Source of the DNA: Synergistaceae bacterium
GTDB taxonomy: Bacteria > Synergistota > Synergistia > Synergistales > Aminobacteriaceae
NCBI GenBank assembly: GCA_031280635.1
Contig: JAITGK010000057.1
Span: forward strand, 1 to 45,235
Length of the DNA: 45,235 bases
Direction of reading: 5' to 3'
The position numbers and the translations under genes were made by a program. The notes below the pieces were generated by a model that was not told where the DNA came from, made no database searches, and saw only the letters and a program-made list of their open reading frames with translations. Below, piece after piece: positions 395 to 9,759 of this stretch; position 1 is the first letter of the stretch, and each line of letters opens with the position of its first letter.

Positions 395-1270
395 TTATAT
401 CGCGGCTTTTTCTTTGATCACCCCGGTCTCGATCTCCAAGAGGCGATCGGCCCATTTCGCGGCCCAAGCGCGTAACTCCGCGACGGCCAGAGGCTGAGGC
501 GTTCCGGAGACCTCGTGCTCCGCGATCTTTCGCGCCAGGTCGAGGTAGACCTTCGCCTGTTTCGAGTCGGGGGCGGCCTCAATAGTGGTTTTGCCCGCGA
601 GTTCACTTTGGGTCACGGTCACCGAGCGCGGAACGTACTCCACTACCTTCGTTTTCGTCTCCGCCGCGAAGTCGTCGATGATGGTTTTCGAGTAGTCCTG
701 GTTGATGGAGTTGGCGATGATCCCGCCCAGGAGCGCGCCGCCGGCGTTCGAGTACTTCTTGATGCCGGTGAAGAGGTTGTTGGCCGCGTAGACAGCCATG
801 AAGTCGGCGGAGGATACCGTGAAGACGTGCTCGGCAATCCCCTCTCGAATGGGCACCGCGAAGCCGCCGCAGACTACGTCGCCTAGGACGTCGAAGATCA
901 CGTAGTCCAGCTCCAGCTCATCGAAGACGCGCTGCTGCTTAAAAAGCTGTACGGCCGTCGTGATGCCCCTTCCGGCGCAACCCACTCCCGGCGACGGACC
1001 GCCCGCCTCCACGCAGTAGACGCCGCCCCAGCCCTCGAATACAACGTCCTGGGCCTTGACCTTGTTGTTTTTGTCCCTCAGCGTATCCAGCACCGTGGGA
1101 ATGTAGCTTCCGCCGCGCAGGGTGTTGGTCGAGTCGCTCTTGGGGTCGCAGCCGAACTGCATGACCTTGAAACCGAACGTGGAAAGCGCCGCGCTGATGT
1201 TGGAGGTTGTCGTTGATTTTCCTATCCCGCCCTTTCCATATATCGCGATTTGTTTGATTTTTTTCGCCAT
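395..1270 (-). CDS. NifH-like nitrogenase reductase (Fe protein homologue)
   Basis: The 291-residue protein is a full-length homologue of dinitrogenase reductase, the homodimeric [4Fe-4S] ATPase that passes electrons to a D/K-type partner. The P-loop GKGGIGKSTT is at residues 12-21. The two cluster cysteines are visible in GVGCAGRG and DVVCGGFAVPIREG, and the arginine after the first is the one ADP-ribosylated in some diazotrophs. The ATG at 1270 follows a GAAAGGA Shine-Dalgarno. It is the last gene of the operon, just after the NifB-like gene. Family knowledge: such proteins serve nitrogenase, chlorophyll reductases, CfbC and methylthio-alkane reductase. The neighbouring D/K, NifB-like and methionine-type importer genes favour a group IV reductase. 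The general role is certain; the substrate of the partner enzyme is inferred. Confidence 0.93.
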   Translation of the reverse strand: MAKKIKQIAIYGKGGIGKSTTTSNISAALSTFGFKVMQFGCDPKSDSTNTLRGGSYIPTVLDTLRDKNNKVKAQDVVFEGWGGVYCVEAGGPSPGVGCAGRGITTAVQLFKQQRVFDELELDYVIFDVLGDVVCGGFAVPIREGIAEHVFTVSSADFMAVYAANNLFTGIKKYSNAGGALLGGIIANSINQDYSKTIIDDFAAETKTKVVEYVPRSVTVTQSELAGKTTIEAAPDSKQAKVYLDLARKIAEHEVSGTPQPLAVAELRAWAAKWADRLLEIETGVIKEKAAI

Positions 1271-1296
1271 GTCCTCATTCCTTTCTACAAAAACGC

Positions 1297-2178
1297 TTAT
1301 CCATGAGAAAAGGTCTCCATTCGCTCGCCGTAAAGCTCCCGCGAGAAATCGCTGAGGCCTGGGATTCCGCAGGCGTCCGCCCGACAGTGTCGGCAGTGGT
1401 AGGACACGTCAAGGTATTTTTCGGCGACGGCCCTGGCTCTGTTCAACTCGCCGCAGGCTGGCGCCTCTACGTGAGCCAGTTCGTGCTGGGGCAGCAGGGG
1501 AATGACGTTGAAAACCGCCGCCCCAGCGCGGCTCACCGTTCTCGCGATGTCCTCGATGTGATCGTCGTTGACGCCAGGAATCAGGACGGTGTTCACCTTG
1601 ACCGTCACGCCCCTTTCACTTACCCTGCGGATGCCCTCGACCTGTCGAAGGGGCAGGATGGACATGTGAGGGCCCGTGAGCCGTTTCCCGCCGAAGATGA
1701 CGTAGGACACCACCTTTTCCAGCGCGACGGGATCGACGGCGTTCACCGTCACCGTAACGGTTTTAACCCCCGCGTCGATCAGGGCGTCCGCCTTGTCGGG
1801 CAGCATCAGGCCGTTGGTGCTGAGACACTTTATCAAGCTGGGATACTCGGCGTGAACGGCGCGAAAGGCCTCAAGGGCCGCGTTTGTCGCCAGGGCTTCG
1901 CCTGGGCCGGCAACCCCCACCACCGTGATGCTGGGGCAGAGGGCGAGGGCCTTTCTCACGGTCTCCAGGGCCTGATCGGGTCGCAAAATCCCCGCCGCCA
2001 CGCCTGGACGCTCCTCTTCCCGGTTGAGGGAGCGGCCGCAAAAACGACACTGGATGTTGCACTCCGGGGACACCGGCAGGTGGAGCCTGCCGTACTTGTT
2101 ATGGGCCTCTCTCCCAAAACAGGGGTGCAGCTGGCTCACCTTCAGCGTTCGGGGCGTCTCCGCGATCACGCTCATCAT
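1297..2178 (-). CDS. NifB-like radical SAM protein (metallocluster biosynthesis)
   Basis: The 293-residue protein carries the NifB hallmarks: HPCF near residue 18, HNKYGRLHLP, the radical SAM motif CNIQCRFC with cysteines at 40, 44 and 47, VAGPGEALATN, LSTNG, and the C-terminal CRHCRADACGIPG. NifB builds the carbide-containing [8Fe-9S-C] precursor of nitrogenase cofactors. This is a short form ending after the radical SAM core. The NifX-like domain that many NifB proteins carry at the C-terminus is encoded by the preceding gene. Its ATG overlaps the stop of that gene in ATGA, which implies translational coupling. No nifE or nifN is nearby, so the NifB product may be inserted directly into the D/K-like enzyme, as reported for methylthio-alkane reductase. 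NifB-family identity is strong; pathway placement is inference. Confidence 0.9.
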   Translation of the reverse strand: MMSVIAETPRTLKVSQLHPCFGREAHNKYGRLHLPVSPECNIQCRFCGRSLNREEERPGVAAGILRPDQALETVRKALALCPSITVVGVAGPGEALATNAALEAFRAVHAEYPSLIKCLSTNGLMLPDKADALIDAGVKTVTVTVNAVDPVALEKVVSYVIFGGKRLTGPHMSILPLRQVEGIRRVSERGVTVKVNTVLIPGVNDDHIEDIARTVSRAGAAVFNVIPLLPQHELAHVEAPACGELNRARAVAEKYLDVSYHCRHCRADACGIPGLSDFSRELYGERMETFSHG

Positions 2179-2537
2179 TCTTCCGTTCCTTCCGTCAAAT
2201 TTTCTTTCACGATTTCCTCAAGCGCTTGCTTGATTTCGGCCTCAAGCTGGAAAACGCGAAACCCCCTTTCCATGAAAAACCTCGCTGGGGTTTCGCCGAT
2301 CTTCACAACAAAGAGCGCGTCGCAGTCCTTCAGCAGCTCGGCGGCTTTTTCGAGTTCCTCAGGGCGATGGGCCGTGCACTGTTCCACGCCTCCCTGGCCT
2401 GGAATCCTGTAGCAGCGCCTTTTTTCGAGGAGCCTGGGTCCGCCTTCGAGGTCATAAATGAAGAAGGCGGTGGCGCGCCCGTAGTGGAGATCGATGAATA
2501 CCCCATCGCTGGAGGCGAAGGCGACCCGTCGAATCAT
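2175..2537 (-). CDS. NifX/NifB-C-like iron-molybdenum cofactor binding domain protein
   Basis: This small protein of about 120 residues begins IRRVAFASSDGVFIDLHYG, typical of the dinitrogenase iron-molybdenum cofactor biosynthesis family (NifX, NafY and the NifB C-terminal domain), which binds cofactor precursors in transit. A Cys in GGVEQCTAHRPEEL may take part. I chose the ATG at 2537 because the family starts close to the first beta strand. A TTG at 2555 overlapping the MetQ stop would add six residues and is a real alternative. It sits between the transporter gene and the NifB-like gene, overlapping the latter by 4 nt. Likely role: carrier or chaperone for the NifB product. Confidence in the family is good; the exact partner is inferred. 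Confidence 0.8.
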   Translation of the reverse strand: MIRRVAFASSDGVFIDLHYGRATAFFIYDLEGGPRLLEKRRCYRIPGQGGVEQCTAHRPEELEKAAELLKDCDALFVVKIGETPARFFMERGFRVFQLEAEIKQALEEIVKENLTEGTEE

Positions 2538-2551
2538 GACCCGTCTCTCGC

Positions 2552-3370
2552 TCAAAAGGCCGGGACGACGGCGCCTTTGTACTTCCCCTCGATGAACTTG
2601 CGCACGTCCTCTGTCCGCAGAACATCCCTGAGCGCGACAATGGCGGGATCGTTCACTCGCCCCGTCCGGGTGACTAGGATGTTTGCGTAAGGCGAGTCCT
2701 TGCCTTCTCGGAACAGGGCCGCGGCGGGGTCGATGCCCGCCTCCAGAATGCGGTTTGTGTTGGTGATGTAGCCGTCGAACTGATCGGCGTTGCGGATAAT
2801 GATCCCCGCGTCTAGCTCCACGATCTCCACCTGCCCTAAGTCCGCGATATCCTGCTTTGTAGCGGAGAAGTTTTGAATGTCGGACTTGAGCTTGATGAAT
2901 CCATTTTGTTCGAGGACTCTCAAGGCCCGGTACTCGTTGGTGGCGTTGTTGGGGACCGCCACGGTGATCTTCCTGTCAGTGGGAATCTCTGACTTCGTCT
3001 TGTACTTCGTCGAATAGAACCCTATCGGCTCTACATGGATGCCGCCCGCTGAGGCTAAATCGTAGTCCTGCTCCGCCTTCACCGATTCAAGATAGGGCAG
3101 GTGCTGGGTGAAGTTGACGTCAAATTGGCTGTTGTGGGTCTGCTCGTTGTAGAGGCGCGCGCTGGCGCTGGTGTCGTCGATGATGGTTATCACAAGGTCG
3201 ATGTTTTTTTCAGCGAGCTTGGGCTTGACGAACTCAAGAAGCTCCGCGTGGGGTACCGCCGAGGCAATGACCTTCAACGTTACGCCCTCCGCGGCCAAAG
3301 CGCCGCTCAAGGAGCCCAAGGAAAAAAGCGCGGATAAGACCAAAAGCGCCGCTGTGTTTCTGCTTTTCAT
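2552..3370 (-). CDS. metQ: MetQ/NlpA-family ABC substrate-binding protein
   Basis: The 272-residue protein matches the D-methionine-binding MetQ/NlpA family: ASAVPHAELLEFVKP near the mature N-terminus, FDVNFTQHLPYLE, IHVEPIGFYSTKYK, VPNNATNEYRALRVLE and DSPYANILVTR. The ATG at 3370 follows AAAGGAGG at ideal spacing, although the frame stays open further upstream through a repeat element. An N-terminal signal peptide ends around SGALAAEG. There is no lipobox cysteine, unlike typical MetQ lipoproteins, so it may be a soluble periplasmic protein. It works with MetI and MetN upstream. Because it sits inside a nitrogenase-like operon, the ligand may be methionine or a related organosulfur compound (inference). 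About 150 bp holding a family A repeat separates it from metI. Confidence 0.88.
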   Translation of the reverse strand: MKSRNTAALLVLSALFSLGSLSGALAAEGVTLKVIASAVPHAELLEFVKPKLAEKNIDLVITIIDDTSASARLYNEQTHNSQFDVNFTQHLPYLESVKAEQDYDLASAGGIHVEPIGFYSTKYKTKSEIPTDRKITVAVPNNATNEYRALRVLEQNGFIKLKSDIQNFSATKQDIADLGQVEIVELDAGIIIRNADQFDGYITNTNRILEAGIDPAAALFREGKDSPYANILVTRTGRVNDPAIVALRDVLRTEDVRKFIEGKYKGAVVPAF

Positions 3371-3408
3371 AACAAAAAACCTCCTTTTAATGACATGACC
3401 AAACACTT

Positions 3409-3480
3409 TGGGGCCTCGCCCCAAACCCCGACCCAGGGGTCCGTGAACCCCAAGGGGTCGCTGACCCCTAAGAACCCCAC
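3409..3480 (-). repeat. Family A intergenic repeat between metI and metQ
   Basis: It contains GGGGCCTCGCCCC, a central degenerate part, and GGGGTCGCTGACCCCTAAG followed by AACCCCA, the reverse orientation of the copy at 306. It lies within the transcribed metI-metQ gap, so it would form hairpins in the mRNA and could set the relative levels of permease and binding protein. Confidence 0.6.
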
Positions 3481-3522
3481 TTATACCGGCCAACACATCT
3501 CGCTCACCTCCCCTTTTGGTTT

Positions 3523-4227
3523 TCATATCAGGTGTCTTTTTTTCAGCACGAACTTCGACAGTCCGTTGCCCGCGAACTGTACAGCCTGGACGAGGACGAT
3601 CATGACCAACGCCGCCGCCAGCAGCACGTCCGTTTTGAAGCGGGAGTAGCCGAAGCGCACCGCCACGTCTCCCAACCCGCCAGCGCCTAGGGTTCCGGCC
3701 AAGGCCGTGGTGGAGATGATGGCGATGACGGAGATGGTGAAACTGCGTATGAGGCTGGGAAGGGCCTCCGGGAGCAGCACCTTCAGCACAATGTCGAGGT
3801 TTTTCGCCCCCATAGAGCGCGCGGCCTCAATCTTGCCCTTAGAGACCTCAAGGATACTGCTCTCCACCAACCTGCCGAACATGGGAACGCAGGTGACGGC
3901 TAGGGCGATGATACAGGCCTTGGGGCCGTAGGATATTCCAATGATCATCCGCGACAGGGGAAGCGTGAGGATGATCACGATCATGGAGGGGAGCGAGCGA
4001 AAACCATTGATGACGCTCCCAAGAAGGGCGTTGAAGCGCGGACTGGGGTATATCCCGTCCCGGTCGGTGACGACCAAAGAGATTCCCAGAAACATCCCAA
4101 AGAAGGCCGTCAATAGGGTTGTGAAGAACACCATGTAGAGGGTCTCGTAGATCGCCGGGGTTACGATCGCCCACGTCTTGTCGCTGAAGGCGCTTCGCAG
4201 GGTTTCAACGAAGGTCATTTTGTTCAT
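3523..4227 (-). CDS. metI: MetI-type ABC transporter permease
   Basis: The 234-residue integral membrane protein has about five hydrophobic segments. The EAA loop, EAARSMGAKNLDIVLKVLLPEALP, is the site that contacts the ATPase. The length and pattern match MetI, the permease of the methionine uptake transporter (MUT) family. It starts 3 nt after the metN stop, so the two are co-transcribed and probably coupled. The pattern FRSLPSMIVIILTLPLSR is typical of MetI. It imports the MetQ ligand across the inner membrane. Confidence 0.9.
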   Translation of the reverse strand: MNKMTFVETLRSAFSDKTWAIVTPAIYETLYMVFFTTLLTAFFGMFLGISLVVTDRDGIYPSPRFNALLGSVINGFRSLPSMIVIILTLPLSRMIIGISYGPKACIIALAVTCVPMFGRLVESSILEVSKGKIEAARSMGAKNLDIVLKVLLPEALPSLIRSFTISVIAIISTTALAGTLGAGGLGDVAVRFGYSRFKTDVLLAAALVMIVLVQAVQFAGNGLSKFVLKKRHLI

Positions 4228-4230
4228 TGC

Positions 4231-5049
4231 TTATATCCCCTCGCCGTCGCTCCAGCCGAAGTTGGCAAAGCCCGCGTCGATCTTAAGAAACAGCTTCGCC
4301 GTTTCGCTCCTGGGACCTTTGAACACGCTCCTCACGGGACCCTTTTCCACGATCCGCCCATCCTCCAAGACGGCCATGTTTTTGCAGATATAGCGAATAA
4401 CGTTGAGTTCGTGGGTGATCAGAATGATGGTCAGCTTCAGCTTTTCGTTGACGCTCTTCAGGAGATCGAGCACGGACAAGGTTGTCTGAGGGTCGAGGGC
4501 CGAGGTGGCCTCGTCGGAAAGCAGGATGTCCGGGTTGTTGGCCAGCGCCCTGGCTATCCCGACCCGCTGCTTCTGCCCCCCAGAGAGCTGCCCTGGGTAG
4601 AAGTCCGCCTTGTCGCTCAAGTCCACAAGATCGAGGATTTCCCTGACCCTCTCCGCTATCTTCTCCTTTTTCTCGCCCGCCACCTCCAGGGGGAAGGAGA
4701 CATTTCCCGCCACGGTTCTGGCGTCCAGAAGGTTGAATTGCTGGAAGATGATCCCGATCTTTTGACGGTACTGGTCAAGCTCCCGTTTTGAAAGCCGGGT
4801 TATCTCCGTCTCACCTATAGATATCTCCCCCTCGTCCGGCTCCTCCAGACGGTTGACGCAGCGGATCAGCGTCGATTTGCCCGCCCCGCTGAACCCGACG
4901 ACGCCAAAGACGTCCCCCCGGTCTATTTCCAGGTCAACGCCCTTCAGCACGTTGAAGCGTTTGTCCCTGGCCTGAAAGGTTTTTTTGAGTCCCGATATTC
5001 GAATGAAGCTCCGATGTAGAGACGGAACGATATTTTTCACAGGCGCCAA
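4231..5049 (-). CDS. metN: MetN-type ABC transporter ATPase lacking the NIL domain
   Basis: The 272-residue ATPase shows Walker A GFSGAGKST, the Q-loop region IIFQQFNLLDARTV, the signature LSGGQKQR, Walker B ILLSDEAT and H-loop ITHE, all in the MetN pattern. It probably starts at TTG 5049 behind AGAGGTG; an in-frame GTG lies 9 nt further in. MetN of E. coli has about 343 residues, the last hundred forming a NIL (ACT-like) domain that binds methionine and inhibits transport. Here the protein ends about 30 residues after the nucleotide-binding domain, so that sensor is missing. The importer is therefore unlikely to show methionine trans-inhibition. A block of three repeat elements separates it from the K-like gene. 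Confidence 0.9.
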   Translation of the reverse strand: MAPVKNIVPSLHRSFIRISGLKKTFQARDKRFNVLKGVDLEIDRGDVFGVVGFSGAGKSTLIRCVNRLEEPDEGEISIGETEITRLSKRELDQYRQKIGIIFQQFNLLDARTVAGNVSFPLEVAGEKKEKIAERVREILDLVDLSDKADFYPGQLSGGQKQRVGIARALANNPDILLSDEATSALDPQTTLSVLDLLKSVNEKLKLTIILITHELNVIRYICKNMAVLEDGRIVEKGPVRSVFKGPRSETAKLFLKIDAGFANFGWSDGEGI

Positions 5050-5363: not shown

Positions 5364-6695
5364 TTACTCATAAGTGGCGAGTACCGTATCGTAGATGTCC
5401 TCGATCAGTCGGAGTCCGCCTTTATAGCCCGCGTAGCAGGTGGTCAGCGCTAGTCTGTAGGGCGAGGGAGGGCTGATGGAGAGGAAGTCGTATCCTTTGT
5501 CCCTCGCCAAACGCTTGTCCCATCCACAGCCCAGGATCAGTCCGCGTCCCTCGTGACCGGCGTCGCGAATTCTCCGCTGCGCCAGGCCCCCATCCGGCTC
5601 AAAGAAAACGGGAATGTCCTTTTTGTTGGATATTTTTTTCATCTCCGCCCGAATCCTGTCATGGTACTCTTCAGGGGTGTTGTCCGTCACAAACTGCTCC
5701 TTGGGCACGATGCCGGTTTCGTGCAGCAGAAACTTGGCGATGCCGATCACGTAGTTGGCGTCGTGCAGGACATGGACGAACTCCGGGAGCCCATAGCGGA
5801 ATTCCAGCAGAAAAGTCGCCAGGCCGTCCAGCGCCTCGTAAAAAGCCAGCTCCTCCCGCGCGATGAAGGCGTTCACCCGCGCCTCCGGCAGCTCCGCGCC
5901 CTGGGCGGCGGCAAAGCGCTCCACGCCTCGCAGGAAGCGCGTGGTCTCGTTGCCGCCGATGGGAAGGTAGGGAAAGTTATAGTAGGGTTGATCGTACTTT
6001 TCCTCAAGCCGTCGCGCGATCTTCAGGCCGTACCACGGGGAGATGACGATGTTGAACCCCGCGGCCGGGATGGTTTTCCACTCCTCGACGCCCCTGGAAT
6101 AGGGCCCAAAGAGCGTGTTTACCCTCAGGCCGATACCCTTCAGGACTCGCTTGAGTTCCTCCAGGTTCCCCTTCCAGAAGGGATCTTGGTAGGGGATCGT
6201 CGCGAAGAGGTTGACGAGCCGGGCGTCCTTTCCAGTGACGCGCGCGCGACGATCCACGTACTGGTCGATCACCGCGTTCACCACCAGGTCGTGGGCCTCA
6301 AAGTTGCTGCACTTGAAGCCGGGGGTCTCCAGCGTTACGATGGGCTTTCCCTCTTCGGCAAACGTTTTCACGACCCGCTCCACGTCGTCCCCGACAATGG
6401 CCGAGGTACAGCCGGTGAGCACCACCTGAAGGTCCGTGTCGAGCACTTTATAGGTGTTGCGGATAAGCTCTTCCAGCTTGTCCTCCCCGCCGAAAACCAC
6501 CTCCCTTTCCGTGAAGTTCGTGCATGGCGCGGTATTCTCCCCGGCGTAGCCCTTGGCCTTGTCGAAAAAACCGCTGACCATGGGCCCGCAGCCTGGACCA
6601 GAGTGCAGAATAGGCACGGCCCTGGGAATAGCGACCACCGTTTGCATCGCTCCTATGGCGCACATAAAACGTTGCTGTTCAATTGGCTTCGACAT
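5364..6695 (-). CDS. Nitrogenase-like component 1, beta (K-type) subunit
   Basis: The 443-residue protein belongs to the nitrogenase component 1 family and resembles NifK more than NifD. It is N-terminally short. Three P-cluster-type cysteines are at the expected spacing: Cys12 in RFMCAIGA, Cys36 in HSGPGCGP and Cys96 in LTGCTSAIVGDD. The conserved REVVFGGEDKL follows a further cysteine (Cys58). The ATG at 6695 overlaps the end of the D-like gene by 17 nt and has a GGAGAGA Shine-Dalgarno, so the two subunits are coupled. It should form an alpha2beta2 enzyme with the D-like subunit, reduced by the NifH-like protein. A separate K subunit argues against the CfbD homodimer type. Substrate unknown; organosulfur reduction is inferred from context. 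Confidence 0.9.
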   Translation of the reverse strand: MSKPIEQQRFMCAIGAMQTVVAIPRAVPILHSGPGCGPMVSGFFDKAKGYAGENTAPCTNFTEREVVFGGEDKLEELIRNTYKVLDTDLQVVLTGCTSAIVGDDVERVVKTFAEEGKPIVTLETPGFKCSNFEAHDLVVNAVIDQYVDRRARVTGKDARLVNLFATIPYQDPFWKGNLEELKRVLKGIGLRVNTLFGPYSRGVEEWKTIPAAGFNIVISPWYGLKIARRLEEKYDQPYYNFPYLPIGGNETTRFLRGVERFAAAQGAELPEARVNAFIAREELAFYEALDGLATFLLEFRYGLPEFVHVLHDANYVIGIAKFLLHETGIVPKEQFVTDNTPEEYHDRIRAEMKKISNKKDIPVFFEPDGGLAQRRIRDAGHEGRGLILGCGWDKRLARDKGYDFLSISPPSPYRLALTTCYAGYKGGLRLIEDIYDTVLATYE

Positions 6696-8175
6696 AAGAT
6701 CTCTCCGCTCCGAGGAACGTGTAAGGGGCCTGCTCCAACCACCACTTCGAGTAAGGGATGACCGCGTGCCGCGCGAGGTTTTTCACGAACTCGTCGTTTT
6801 CGATGGTGTTCACAATGCGCCGCCCGTACTTCACAAGGCCTTCGTAGCCCATGCCATAGTGCTCATCTCCAATCAGAAGGGAGGGGACGCCGAACTTCGC
6901 GCCCCAAAGGGTCATACCGCCGTGCCGCGCCAGAAGCACGTCCGGTCTCGTCCTATGGAGGATGTTCACCAGTTCAAACTCCTGCTTGTTGCAGACGTTG
7001 TAGCCGGGGACGTCGCCGTAGATCTCCACCAAGTTGTTCAGCGAGTCGAGTGCGTCGATGCCCTTGTCGTAAACGGGATCGTGGTGGAATATCGCCGCTC
7101 CAAGCGGGCGCAGGCCCAGCTCCTTCAGCAAACCCAGGAGCGCGTGACCATGAGACGCTCCAGCCGTCACGTAGGCGGTCTTGCCGAAGAGCTTTTGCCT
7201 GAGGACCTCGATCTCCGGCAGCCATTTCTCCCTTTCCTCGCGCAGGAAAACCTCGGCTTCGGCCTCTTTGCCGGTCATTTTGCCCAGCTCCCGGAACCAT
7301 TTTTCCGTCTGCTCGACGCCATAGGGCGGGGAGACGCAGATCTCCGGCACGCCGAACTCCTGCTCCAGCGCCGCCGCCAGGTAAGAACCCAGTGTCGAGC
7401 AAATTTGCGCCGTGGCCACGGCCTCCGAGGATGTCGCGATCTGTTTGGTGGTGGCGTAGGGGGTGAGGTAGTTGGCCCTCAGACCCAGGCGCTTGAACCA
7501 CTGGCCGAAGACGTCCGCGCCCCAAAAGTTCACAATGTTGACCAAGTCCTTCTGTTTTTTGACGGGGGGCTTGATGAGCTTTCTTGCCACGCCATGGTAG
7601 CCGGCGTCGAACCCAGACGTCCAGATTTTGGAGCGGAAACCCTCGCAGAAGATCGCCGCCACGGGAACGCCAAGCTCCTGTTCGGCCTTGTCCGCAATGC
7701 CCTGTACGTCATCGCCGATGATGCCCGAAGCGCAGGTGGTGACGATGAAGATGACGTTCGGCTTCACGCGCTGGTAGACCTGGCGGATGGTCGCGGCCAG
7801 CTTCTCGCCGCCGCCGTAGACCGTGTCGTTTTCGTCCATGTTGCTGCTGAATATGCGCCTTTGCCGTGGGTCGGCGACTCCCCGGTGCTTTCCATTCACG
7901 CGGTAGGTGAAACCGTAGTCGTGCAGGCGTCCAGCGCACCCTATCGGCCCGTGGCTGATAACGGCGCTGTCCTGGATCAGCGCCACAGCGCAGGTGGCGT
8001 TACTGGTCGAACATCCGAGACACTGGCTGAAAGAGCGCTCGGAGTCGTTCAGCTCCCCGCACCGGGCGCACCGCACTAGCTCCGCCGCCGTACCCTCGAA
8101 CCCCGTAATTGAGCCAAGTCGGTTTTCCCGTACCTGTACCTCGGCCGCTTTCAAATTGACGGTACTCAAATTCAT
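6679..8175 (-). CDS. Nitrogenase-like component 1, alpha (D-type) catalytic subunit
   Basis: The 498-residue protein is a NifD-family homologue. P-cluster-type cysteines align as Cys55 (CLGCSTSNATC), Cys80 (SHGPIGCAG) and Cys148 (TTCASGIIGDD), with DTVYGGGEKL between the last two. Cys259 in ATAQICSTLGSYLAAALEQ matches the NifD residue that ligates the active-site cofactor. The canonical cofactor histidine is not at its aligned place near DEHYGMGYEGL, although a His lies a few residues away. The N-terminus adds CARC (36-39) plus extra cysteines 52 and 62, a possible extra metal site. I chose ATG 8175, 4 nt after AGGAG; a TTG at 8178 is too close. It is the first gene of the operon, behind an attenuator. 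It probably holds a NifB-derived cofactor and reduces a substrate other than N2. Confidence 0.9.
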   Translation of the reverse strand: MNLSTVNLKAAEVQVRENRLGSITGFEGTAAELVRCARCGELNDSERSFSQCLGCSTSNATCAVALIQDSAVISHGPIGCAGRLHDYGFTYRVNGKHRGVADPRQRRIFSSNMDENDTVYGGGEKLAATIRQVYQRVKPNVIFIVTTCASGIIGDDVQGIADKAEQELGVPVAAIFCEGFRSKIWTSGFDAGYHGVARKLIKPPVKKQKDLVNIVNFWGADVFGQWFKRLGLRANYLTPYATTKQIATSSEAVATAQICSTLGSYLAAALEQEFGVPEICVSPPYGVEQTEKWFRELGKMTGKEAEAEVFLREEREKWLPEIEVLRQKLFGKTAYVTAGASHGHALLGLLKELGLRPLGAAIFHHDPVYDKGIDALDSLNNLVEIYGDVPGYNVCNKQEFELVNILHRTRPDVLLARHGGMTLWGAKFGVPSLLIGDEHYGMGYEGLVKYGRRIVNTIENDEFVKNLARHAVIPYSKWWLEQAPYTFLGAERSYVEAN

Positions 8176-8204
8176 CAAGCTCCTGTCGTCTGGAATATGG
8201 ACTC

Positions 8205-8235
8205 AAAAAAAGCCGACTCTCCGATGAGAGCCGGC
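8205..8235 (-). terminator. Intrinsic terminator in the leader of the nitrogenase-like operon (attenuator)
   Basis: On the minus strand GCCGGCTCTC-ATCG-GAGAGTCGGC forms a 10-bp stem with one G-U pair and a 4-nt loop, followed by seven T residues. It ends 30 nt before the D-like start codon. The next gene to the right is divergent, so no upstream gene could use this terminator. It must therefore act within the leader, i.e. as a regulated attenuator. Confidence 0.82.
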
Positions 8236-8264
8236 CTTCACCTTCCTGTCTTTTGGGCGGAACG

Positions 8265-8300
8265 CTAGGTCATCATCATGAGGAACGCAAGTCCATACAC
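8265..8300 (-). promoter_or_regulatory. Candidate leader peptide ending Met-Met-Met-Thr
   Basis: A 12-codon minus-strand frame starts GTG-TAT-GGA and ends ATG-ATG-ATG-ACC-TAG, just upstream of the attenuator hairpin. Tandem codons for the regulating amino acid are the hallmark of ribosome-mediated attenuation. Here that amino acid would be methionine, which fits the methionine-type transporter in the operon. No good Shine-Dalgarno precedes the GTG, and I could not find a strong anti-terminator, so this is a hypothesis only. Confidence 0.3.
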
Positions 8301-8700
8301 GAATGTTCACGGCAGAAAACACACATCCGCCGCGCGCGGGCACACACGCACATGTTCGTCATCGACTTATAGACTTTGACCACCCCAATCACCCCGTTCA
8401 CCTCTCGCGAAAGATGCGAAAGTATAATATACGAAACTAGTAAGCTATATAAGAAATTACGGATATTTTAGCGGTGTTTTTTTATTTGTCAAGGGGGGAG
8501 GCGAGAACGAGAACGTATCAAAACGCGGCGCTTCTTCATCCATTGACGTTGCTTTGTCTCCCGCGGCGAAATTTTTTGGGGCAAGAGCGCCCAGCGCGTT
8601 CTCGAATCTCAATGTATAATAAAATAGACGAAGCGAAATTTTTCAAAGAGCGCGAGGGGAAAAATAGTGTGAACCTTAAGCCCTCAAAAGGAAGGTCAAA
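8301..8700. other. Divergent promoter region, long leader
   Basis: This gap of about 400 bp separates the minus-strand nitrogenase-like operon from the plus-strand signalling genes. On the minus strand TATTAT at 8424-8429 is a possible -10 with no good -35, which would give a leader of about 240 nt. On the plus strand TATAAT at 8615-8620 is a possible -10 for the response-regulator gene, again with no clear -35. I recognise no SAM, T-box or other known riboswitch consensus. Confidence 0.35.
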
Positions 8701-9759
8701 ATGCAAAACGAGAGGAAAAAAGTGCTTATTGTGGACGACAACCCCGTCAACCTGAAAATGGCCCGGAACATCCTAATGGACCGATATGACGCTTTCACAG
8801 TCCCTGGCGCGGAGAAAATGTACCAGTTCCTCGAAAAGTCGCGTCCCGACCTGATACTGCTGGACGTTCTCATGCCCGATATCGACGGATATGAGGCAAT
8901 ACAGCACCTGAAAAGCGACTTCGCCACAAAAAACATCCCCGTGATCTTCCTCACTTCGAAGTCAGATACCGAAAGCGAGCTCAAAGGACTCTCTCTGGGC
9001 GCGGCGGACTACATCTCCAAGCCCTTCGCGCCCCACCTCCTGCTGAAGCGCATCGAAATGCACCTGCTGGTCGAGTCCCAGAAGCTGGAGCTGCGAAACT
9101 TCAACGAAAACCTGCAACAACTGGTGGAGCAAAAGACCCGCGCCGTTCTGGAACTCCAAAGCTCCATCCTCCTGACGGTGAGCGACTTGGTCGAGTTCCG
9201 GGACGACGTAACCGGCGGACACATTCTGCGCACCGCGCGGACGTTGCGCCTCCTGTTGGACGAAATGCTCTCCCACGGCGTCTACCAAGACAAGGTGGAG
9301 AGCTGGAACATCGACTTGTTTCTGCAGTCCTCCCAGTTGCACGACGTGGGGAAAATCTCTATTCACGACAGCATTCTTCTGAAACCGGCCCGGTTGACCT
9401 TTGAGGAGTTCGAGGAAATGAAAAAACACACCACTTTTGGCGAGAAGATCATCGATCGGATACAGTCCAGCACCAGCGAAAACGACTTCCTAAGCCACGC
9501 GAAAATCATGGCCGGCACACATCACGAGAGGTGGGACGGCTTTGGCTATCCCATGGGACTCGCGGAAACGGACATTCCCCTGCAAGGGCGACTGATGGCT
9601 CTGGCCGACGTGTACGACGCGCTGATCTCGAAGCGTCCTTACAAGGAGCCCTTCTCCCACGAAGAAGCTCTGGAGATCATCGCCGAGGGGCGGGGCTCTC
9701 ACTTCGACCCCGTCCTATCGGAGCTTTTTCTGAGCGCTTCTCAGCGGTTCCACGATTGA
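8701..9759 (+). CDS. Response regulator with HD-GYP domain (likely c-di-GMP phosphodiesterase)
   Basis: The 352-residue protein joins an N-terminal receiver (VLIVDDNPVN; phospho-acceptor Asp55 in LLDVLMPDIDG; conserved TSK and KPF) to a short coiled-coil-like linker and an HD-GYP domain. The HD motif is SQLHDVGKISIHDSILLKP and the GYP motif HHERWDGFGYPMGL, followed by ADVYDALISKRPYK. HD-GYP proteins hydrolyse cyclic di-GMP using a metal centre held by these His and Asp residues. The start follows AGGAAGG at 6 nt. Its stop overlaps the start of the next gene in TGATG, and the hybrid kinase two genes on is a plausible phosphodonor. The expected output is lower c-di-GMP when phosphorylated, but the direction of control cannot be read from sequence. 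Confidence 0.92.
   Translation: MQNERKKVLIVDDNPVNLKMARNILMDRYDAFTVPGAEKMYQFLEKSRPDLILLDVLMPDIDGYEAIQHLKSDFATKNIPVIFLTSKSDTESELKGLSLGAADYISKPFAPHLLLKRIEMHLLVESQKLELRNFNENLQQLVEQKTRAVLELQSSILLTVSDLVEFRDDVTGGHILRTARTLRLLLDEMLSHGVYQDKVESWNIDLFLQSSQLHDVGKISIHDSILLKPARLTFEEFEEMKKHTTFGEKIIDRIQSSTSENDFLSHAKIMAGTHHERWDGFGYPMGLAETDIPLQGRLMALADVYDALISKRPYKEPFSHEEALEIIAEGRGSHFDPVLSELFLSASQRFHD

Follow-up and report, generated by a model that had tools for sequence, protein, structure and literature searches.

The stretch of DNA analysed here, called the window, is the 45,235-nt contig JAITGK010000057.1 of a termite-gut Synergistaceae bacterium (assembly GCA_031280635.1). A nitrogenase-like operon lies on its minus strand, preceded by a leader with the following features.

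395–2555, minus strand: NifX-like, NifB-like (radical SAM) and NifH-like genes (NCBIfam).
2552–5049, minus strand: MetN-, MetI- and MetQ-like genes of a methionine-type ABC transporter (NCBIfam, under the equivalog cut-offs).
5364–6695, minus strand: MarK-like gene (NifK homologue), best match 9d9u_C.
6679–8178, minus strand: MarD-like gene (NifD homologue), first gene of the operon, best PDB match 9fmg/9d9u.
8180–8185, minus strand: ribosome-binding site CAGGAG of the first structural gene.
8205–8238, minus strand: intrinsic terminator; CTCATC in its 5′ arm and loop is the candidate antiterminator partner of the stop-codon element.
8265–8300, minus strand: 12-codon frame GTG..ATG ATG ATG ACC TAG, judged non-functional as a leader.
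8268–8278, minus strand: TGA TGA TGA CC, the tandem stops of the leader ORF and 5′ strand of the candidate antiterminator.
8276–8392, minus strand: predicted leader peptide ORF of 38 codons, MIGVVKVYKSMTNMCVCARARRMCVFCREHSCMDLRSS, with profile matches in seven Synergistaceae genomes.
8342–8350, minus strand: putative regulatory codons TGC GTG TGT (C-x-C), with the two Cys codons 24 and 22 codons before the stop.
8401–8406, minus strand: Shine-Dalgarno sequence (SD) GAGAGG, 8 nt ahead of the GTG start of the leader ORF.
8465–8492, minus strand: sigma-70 promoter TTGACA (8492–8487), 16 nt, TAAAAT (8470–8465).

This promoter was the only sigma-70-like site that a promoter scan detected within the first 14 kb. 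Nine of ten related leaders have TTGACAA(A/G) and a TATAAT-like box upstream. A transcript from a start near 8460 to the terminator hairpin would be about 220 nt long. The first structural gene starts at ATG 8175, or at TTG 8169 as suggested by relatives. Several leaders have AT-rich inverted repeats, such as AATAACTTAT-N7-ATAAGTTATT, downstream of the −10 box and ahead of the leader ORF. In the window they fall at 8420–8460, where the copy is indistinct, and they have the same place in G072b (L124), G074 (L125) and G077 (L158). They are a possible operator and may add a second layer of control.

The terminator has the sequence AAGGCCGGCTCTC-ATCG-GAGAGTCGGCTTT and forms a hairpin at 8238–8209, followed by seven T that end at 8205. 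Its predicted fold energy is −22.8 kcal/mol. The first-pass annotation had described a 10-bp hairpin with seven T about 30 nt before the first gene; the hairpin, the T run and the distance were found as described, while the stem is longer, with 13 pairs when G-U pairs are included. The nearest gene on the other side, a response regulator gene at 8701–9759, is divergent. No upstream gene can therefore use the terminator, as the annotation had stated, and it can act solely on the operon's own leader. The hairpin is kept in the homologous leaders, where 97.4% of cells are paired and five pairs are changed on both sides. None of 500 shuffles matched it on the pairing or the covariation score. The terminator is real and conserved with compensatory changes beyond chance. 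A generic terminator scanner made no call at the 8238–8205 hairpin; the probable reason is that its stem extends into the T run. Complementary sequences flanking the terminator (UAUGGACUU/GAGUCCAUA) are only partly kept in a sister genome and were not detected in other relatives.

The leader ORF of the window encodes five Cys and four internal Met in addition to the start, with Met in the surroundings of the C-x-C motif. Across the leaders, Cys makes up 12.1% and Met 12.6% of the residues, compared with 1.2% and 2.0% in the proteins of the window. The probability of at least 10 Cys plus Met among 38 residues is about 2e-7. Relatives also have a purine-rich, SD-like sequence ahead of the leader start. 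In five ungapped leaders, both Cys of the C-x-C motif are kept and every difference in their codons is a silent C/T exchange at the third base; elsewhere, all three codon positions vary freely. Third-base bias was used as evidence for coding, and no third-base excess was found across the leaders outside the Cys codons, so a general coding constraint is unsupported. We infer that the ORF at 8392–8276 encodes a functional leader peptide, its translation being predicted. Reading of UGA as selenocysteine was rejected, because the window has three UGAs in a row and some 40 nt separate them from the hairpin.

Ten leaders of like layout were found in termite-gut Synergistaceae, five of them before MarD-like genes and the others before MarK-like, NifB-like (twice), NifX-like and MetY genes.

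Window, G001, G073 contig 9, G072 contig 133 and L014: leader before MarD-like genes.
G077 contig 73: leader with a promoter of its own, between MarD- and MarK-like genes.
G074 contig 122: leader before an O-acetylhomoserine sulfhydrylase gene (MetY), with NifX- and MarD-like genes downstream.
G072 contig 157 and G076 contig 191: leader before NifB-like genes.
G073 contig 95: leader before a NifX-like gene.

In 188 Synergistota genomes, the DNA pattern ATGTGYRTGTGY, 40–70 nt, TGATGAY recovered the orthologous leaders and two new ones, together with two probable chance matches; the reversed control gave none. A peptide profile search yielded further leaders. The profile of nine leaders had nine matches with E ≤ 2.4e-12, which include its own source sequences, in seven of the 188 genomes; the next best match had E = 0.0045. 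Addition of L014 gave ten. All nine strong matches precede nitrogenase-like or sulfur genes, and none lies elsewhere in the 188 genomes. Of 83 genomes of the family that were searched, seven have a strong MarD-like match (E ≤ 1e-100), and they are the seven leader-bearing ones. Weak profile matches in G010, G012 and G077:C285 were judged to be chance on the basis of E-value, context or loss with a fuller profile.

The layout is regular. Eight of the ten leaders end in a tandem TGA TGA; in these eight, the first Cys codon lies 66–72 nt ahead of the stop and the terminator starts 39–54 nt past it. CATC is present within the terminator loop region of nine leaders. Nine also have C-x-C, which lies close to its usual place except in L014, where it is found towards the end of a shorter ORF; the G076 leader has S-M-C and later C-D-A-C-C-K-C. 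Exceptions are L014 with a shorter or two-part leader, G073:C95, which lacks the stop/terminator spacing, and G074 with a loop lacking CATC. The L014 leader (600–900) appears to be split into two mini-ORFs that overlap in ATGA and carry one C-x-C each (LCEC, CRC). On G077 contig 73 (L158, 2400–2890), promoter, Cys/Met leader and terminator are located between the MarD- and MarK-like genes, which therefore would be controlled separately. Three Synergistaceae operons (L012/G077, L013 and L015) have no leader directly before marD. In Elusimicrobia, Spirochaetota and Bacillota, no like leader was detected in the scanned stretch of up to 400 nt ahead of the same gene. The profile search of 11 further genomes gave one match (E = 0.005), in an Endomicrobium MAG, without the leader layout.

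The stop-codon element can pair with the terminator. A stalled ribosome was modelled by removal of the RNA upstream of the second Cys codon plus 15 nt, with the transcript ending at the end of the terminator loop. In eight leaders including that of the window, the UGAUGA stop element is then predicted to pair with the CAUC loop and part of the 5′ arm. For a ribosome at the stop, the RNA was removed to 12 nt beyond the stop codon, and nine of ten leaders were then predicted to fold into the terminator. In another test, with the upstream context fixed at 50 nt, the CATC loop pairs exactly with the stop element in seven of nine leaders, compared with 2–5% of dinucleotide shuffles. The energy of the antiterminator in single sequences was ordinary in comparison to shuffles. 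Pairing was not weakened by a swap of strands between leaders as a test of covariation (p = 0.23), because both antiterminator strands are conserved in sequence. Formation of the antiterminator is thus likely on the basis of conserved complementarity, not covariation.

The operon encodes a putative methylthio-alkane reductase (Mar). Among solved structures, the D subunit of the window matches MarD (9fmg/9d9u) with 427 bits versus 122 for the next nitrogenase, and the K subunit matches 9d9u_C, a chain sequence common to 9fmg, with 391 bits versus 64 for the next. Hallmarks of Mar are Arg428-His429 and Trp195/Phe199, which replace Gln191/His195 of NifD (PMC12552129). The D subunit of the window has ARHGG at the Arg428-His429 position and SKIWTSGF at Trp195/Phe199; His194 is Ile. 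Both NifDK homologues are closest to Mar among the solved structures, and a Mar-like identity fits sulfur salvage. The D subunit of the window also shares 74% identity with its counterpart in a termite-gut Endomicrobium MAG. For Endomicrobium proavitum, N2 fixation by a group IV nitrogenase is reported, as cited in PMC8399215 and PMC4505116.

The neighbours of the leaders, namely the methionine-type transporter, MetY, CysK and Ssu-type genes, fit sulfur acquisition. The MetY-like gene of G074 contig 122 scored 459 bits with TIGR01326, slightly under the cut-off of 495. G072 contig 157 has two cysK genes over the NCBIfam cut-off (TIGR01139), sulfonate-type transporter genes and two MarDK-like pairs. 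In this operon-like gene run (L124 751–17400, minus strand), the Cys/Met leader is followed by NifB-like, NifX-like and permease-type genes, two SsuA-like genes and an SsuC-like gene. CysK, a MarK/MarD-like pair, a second CysK, an SsuB-like gene and a second MarD/MarK-like pair come next. The run suggests a nitrogenase-like enzyme that may deliver reduced sulfur to cysteine synthase. In L018, L019, L021, L023 and L025 (Acetobacterium, Treponema), the gene just upstream of the MarD-like gene closes with a sequence resembling MetY. This looks like an independent link of the MarD-like family to methionine synthesis.

The leader is quite probably a ribosome-mediated transcription attenuator that reads the supply of cysteine, and probably also of methionine. 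The sequence itself shows the promoter, SD, ORF, conserved Cys codons, conserved tandem stop and covarying terminator, and the recurrence of the leader before MetY and cysK operons. From it we infer that the leader is translated, that ribosomes stall on it, that the antiterminator forms and which signal is read. RNA polymerase would start near 8460 and a ribosome would load onto the 38-codon leader ORF. With plentiful Cys-tRNA (or Met-tRNA), the ribosome would reach the tandem UGA stops and cover the UGAUGAUGACC element. The terminator at 8238–8205 could then fold and transcription would end. If the charged tRNA is scarce, the ribosome would stall at C-x-C or at later Cys codons. UGAUGA would be left free to pair with the CAUC loop and the 5′ arm, and the resulting antiterminator would enable expression of the Mar-like reductase operon and the methionine-type transporter. 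The combination of a Cys/Met-rich leader gene and a transcription stop signal suggests that the operon genes are probably on only under sulfur amino acid shortage.

The first-pass annotation had proposed an attenuator before the nitrogenase-like operon, with a possible Met-Met-Met leader peptide encoded by a 12-codon frame. Attenuation was the right idea: the terminator is conserved, with a different leader ORF. An input of sulfur amino acids also remains likely, given the Cys/Met-rich ORF at 8392–8276, but not the tandem-Met peptide as the sensor of methionine, which is barely credible. The frame with three ATG, Thr and stop does exist at 8300–8265, directly ahead of the terminator. It lacks a Shine-Dalgarno sequence, a weak point already recognised in the annotation. 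In the sister genome, whose MarD-like protein is 94–95% identical, GCA stands in place of its GTG start and GTG in place of its first ATG, which replaces Met by Val. Other relatives have one to three Met in this frame, and the position of its end differs. Start, Met run and frame end thus all vary, and the Met-Met-Met leader peptide was rejected for lack of conservation in relatives. The bases of the ATG run are accounted for by the conserved TGATGA stop/antiterminator element: ATGATGATG is the tandem TGA TGA TGA stop of the 38-codon ORF, read one frame off.

Three other explanations were weighed. The nascent Cys-rich peptide could itself be a sensor: by binding metal, an Fe-S species or sulfide it would arrest the ribosome, and terminator and antiterminator would serve as the readout as before. 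Cys residues at fixed places (−24, −22 and −12 from the stop) could bind metal, and the operon makes metallocluster enzymes. This is nevertheless unlikely: the number (2–7) and spacing of Cys vary, the intervening residues are not conserved, Met is as enriched as Cys, and the shared downstream genes concern Cys/Met synthesis and sulfur uptake. SD, start, open frame and tandem in-frame stops persist in diverged leaders, as do Cys codons with silent third-base changes. They make it very unlikely that a riboswitch or a protein-bound leader RNA governs the terminator with an incidental ORF, although the leader has a conserved nucleotide block, AACATGTGYATGTGY, and is AT-rich or GC-structured over much of its length. 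Predicted folding of the leader as a whole is also unexceptional (z = −1.5). Rfam covariance models detected no family at gathering score and, in 8100–8720, only chance-level matches at E ≤ 10 (best E = 1.8); a SAM or other known riboswitch was rejected, with no Rfam family even at this permissive threshold. A constitutive partial terminator without regulatory input would agree with the terminator being the predicted fold of every leader when all RNA is free. It is highly improbable, since it needs none of the jointly conserved loop sequence, stop element and Cys codons.

The attenuator is of interest in that it ties group IV nitrogenase-like operons to the supply of sulfur amino acids. Its regulatory codons point to a shortage of cysteine and methionine, not of nitrogen, as the trigger of the operon. 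One candidate regulon would comprise three operon types: Mar-like genes with MetNIQ; MetY with a MarD-like gene; and NifB with CysK, an Ssu-type transporter and MarDK-like genes. Among termite-gut bacteria, a Cys/Met attenuator regulon may control a family of nitrogenase-like operons of group IV; to this tentative proposal we give slightly less than even chances. If true, such enzymes would be C-S reductases for sulfur acquisition that feed MetY and CysK, and not N2 fixers. This bears on the question of N2 fixation versus sulfur salvage by group IV 'nitrogenases' of termite symbionts. Regulatory codons can reveal the purpose of an operon without knowledge of the enzyme's chemistry.

Leader-peptide attenuators of trp, his, thr and ilv operons combine regulatory codons with mutually exclusive antiterminator and terminator structures, and a ribosome at the stop favours termination. 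The Synergistota leader resembles them in its putative regulatory codons, in a terminator and a candidate antiterminator predicted to exclude each other, and in the termination proposed here for a ribosome at the stop. It differs by the use of Cys and Met codons, by a candidate antiterminator strand that overlaps tandem stops and by a Mar-type operon as its target.

A further known system is the marBHDK operon of Rhodospirillum rubrum, which serves sulfur salvage via methanethiol to methionine (PMC12552129); its MarDK are nearest, among solved structures, to the NifDK homologues of the window, and the salvage logic would be shared. Unlike marBHDK, the window operon has NifX- and MetNIQ-like genes and the candidate attenuator, and its enzyme is putative. 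The G072 operon resembles, in its gene content, the mix of group IV nitrogenase-like and sulfonate transporter genes in IsrBHDK-SsuCAB of Rhodobacter capsulatus, an isethionate reductase system induced on isethionate relative to sulfate (PMC11423573).

A search of the open literature found no combined Cys/Met leader, none in Synergistota and none that controls a nitrogenase-like operon. Cys-codon leaders are described elsewhere. Mycobacterial cys operons have polycysteine leader ORFs (PMC1262725; Canestrari et al. 2020, cited in PMC13236596 and PMC9031893). As in the Synergistota, a Cys-codon-rich short ORF precedes sulfur-assimilation genes, and mycobacterial expression is described as dependent on Cys availability. 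In these accounts, the mycobacterial ORF is leaderless and without an intrinsic terminator; translational attenuation is reported and Rho is proposed. The Synergistota leader, in contrast, combines an ORF preceded by an SD with an intrinsic terminator and a candidate antiterminator. For uORFC-8-2 before cysS in Rhodobacterales, ribosome-mediated attenuation of transcription by the level of Cys-tRNA was proposed (PMC8632094). Like the Synergistota leader, it is a short uORF in which two conserved Cys codons (UGC/UGU) precede an intrinsic terminator. In uORFC-8-2 the Cys are in tandem at codons 14–15, before a cysteinyl-tRNA synthetase gene of alphaproteobacteria (PMC8632094), whereas the Synergistota leader has C-x-C plus Met, precedes nitrogenase-like, MetY and CysK operons and has no Rfam match. 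The Synergistota leader belongs to a known kind, the Cys-codon attenuators.
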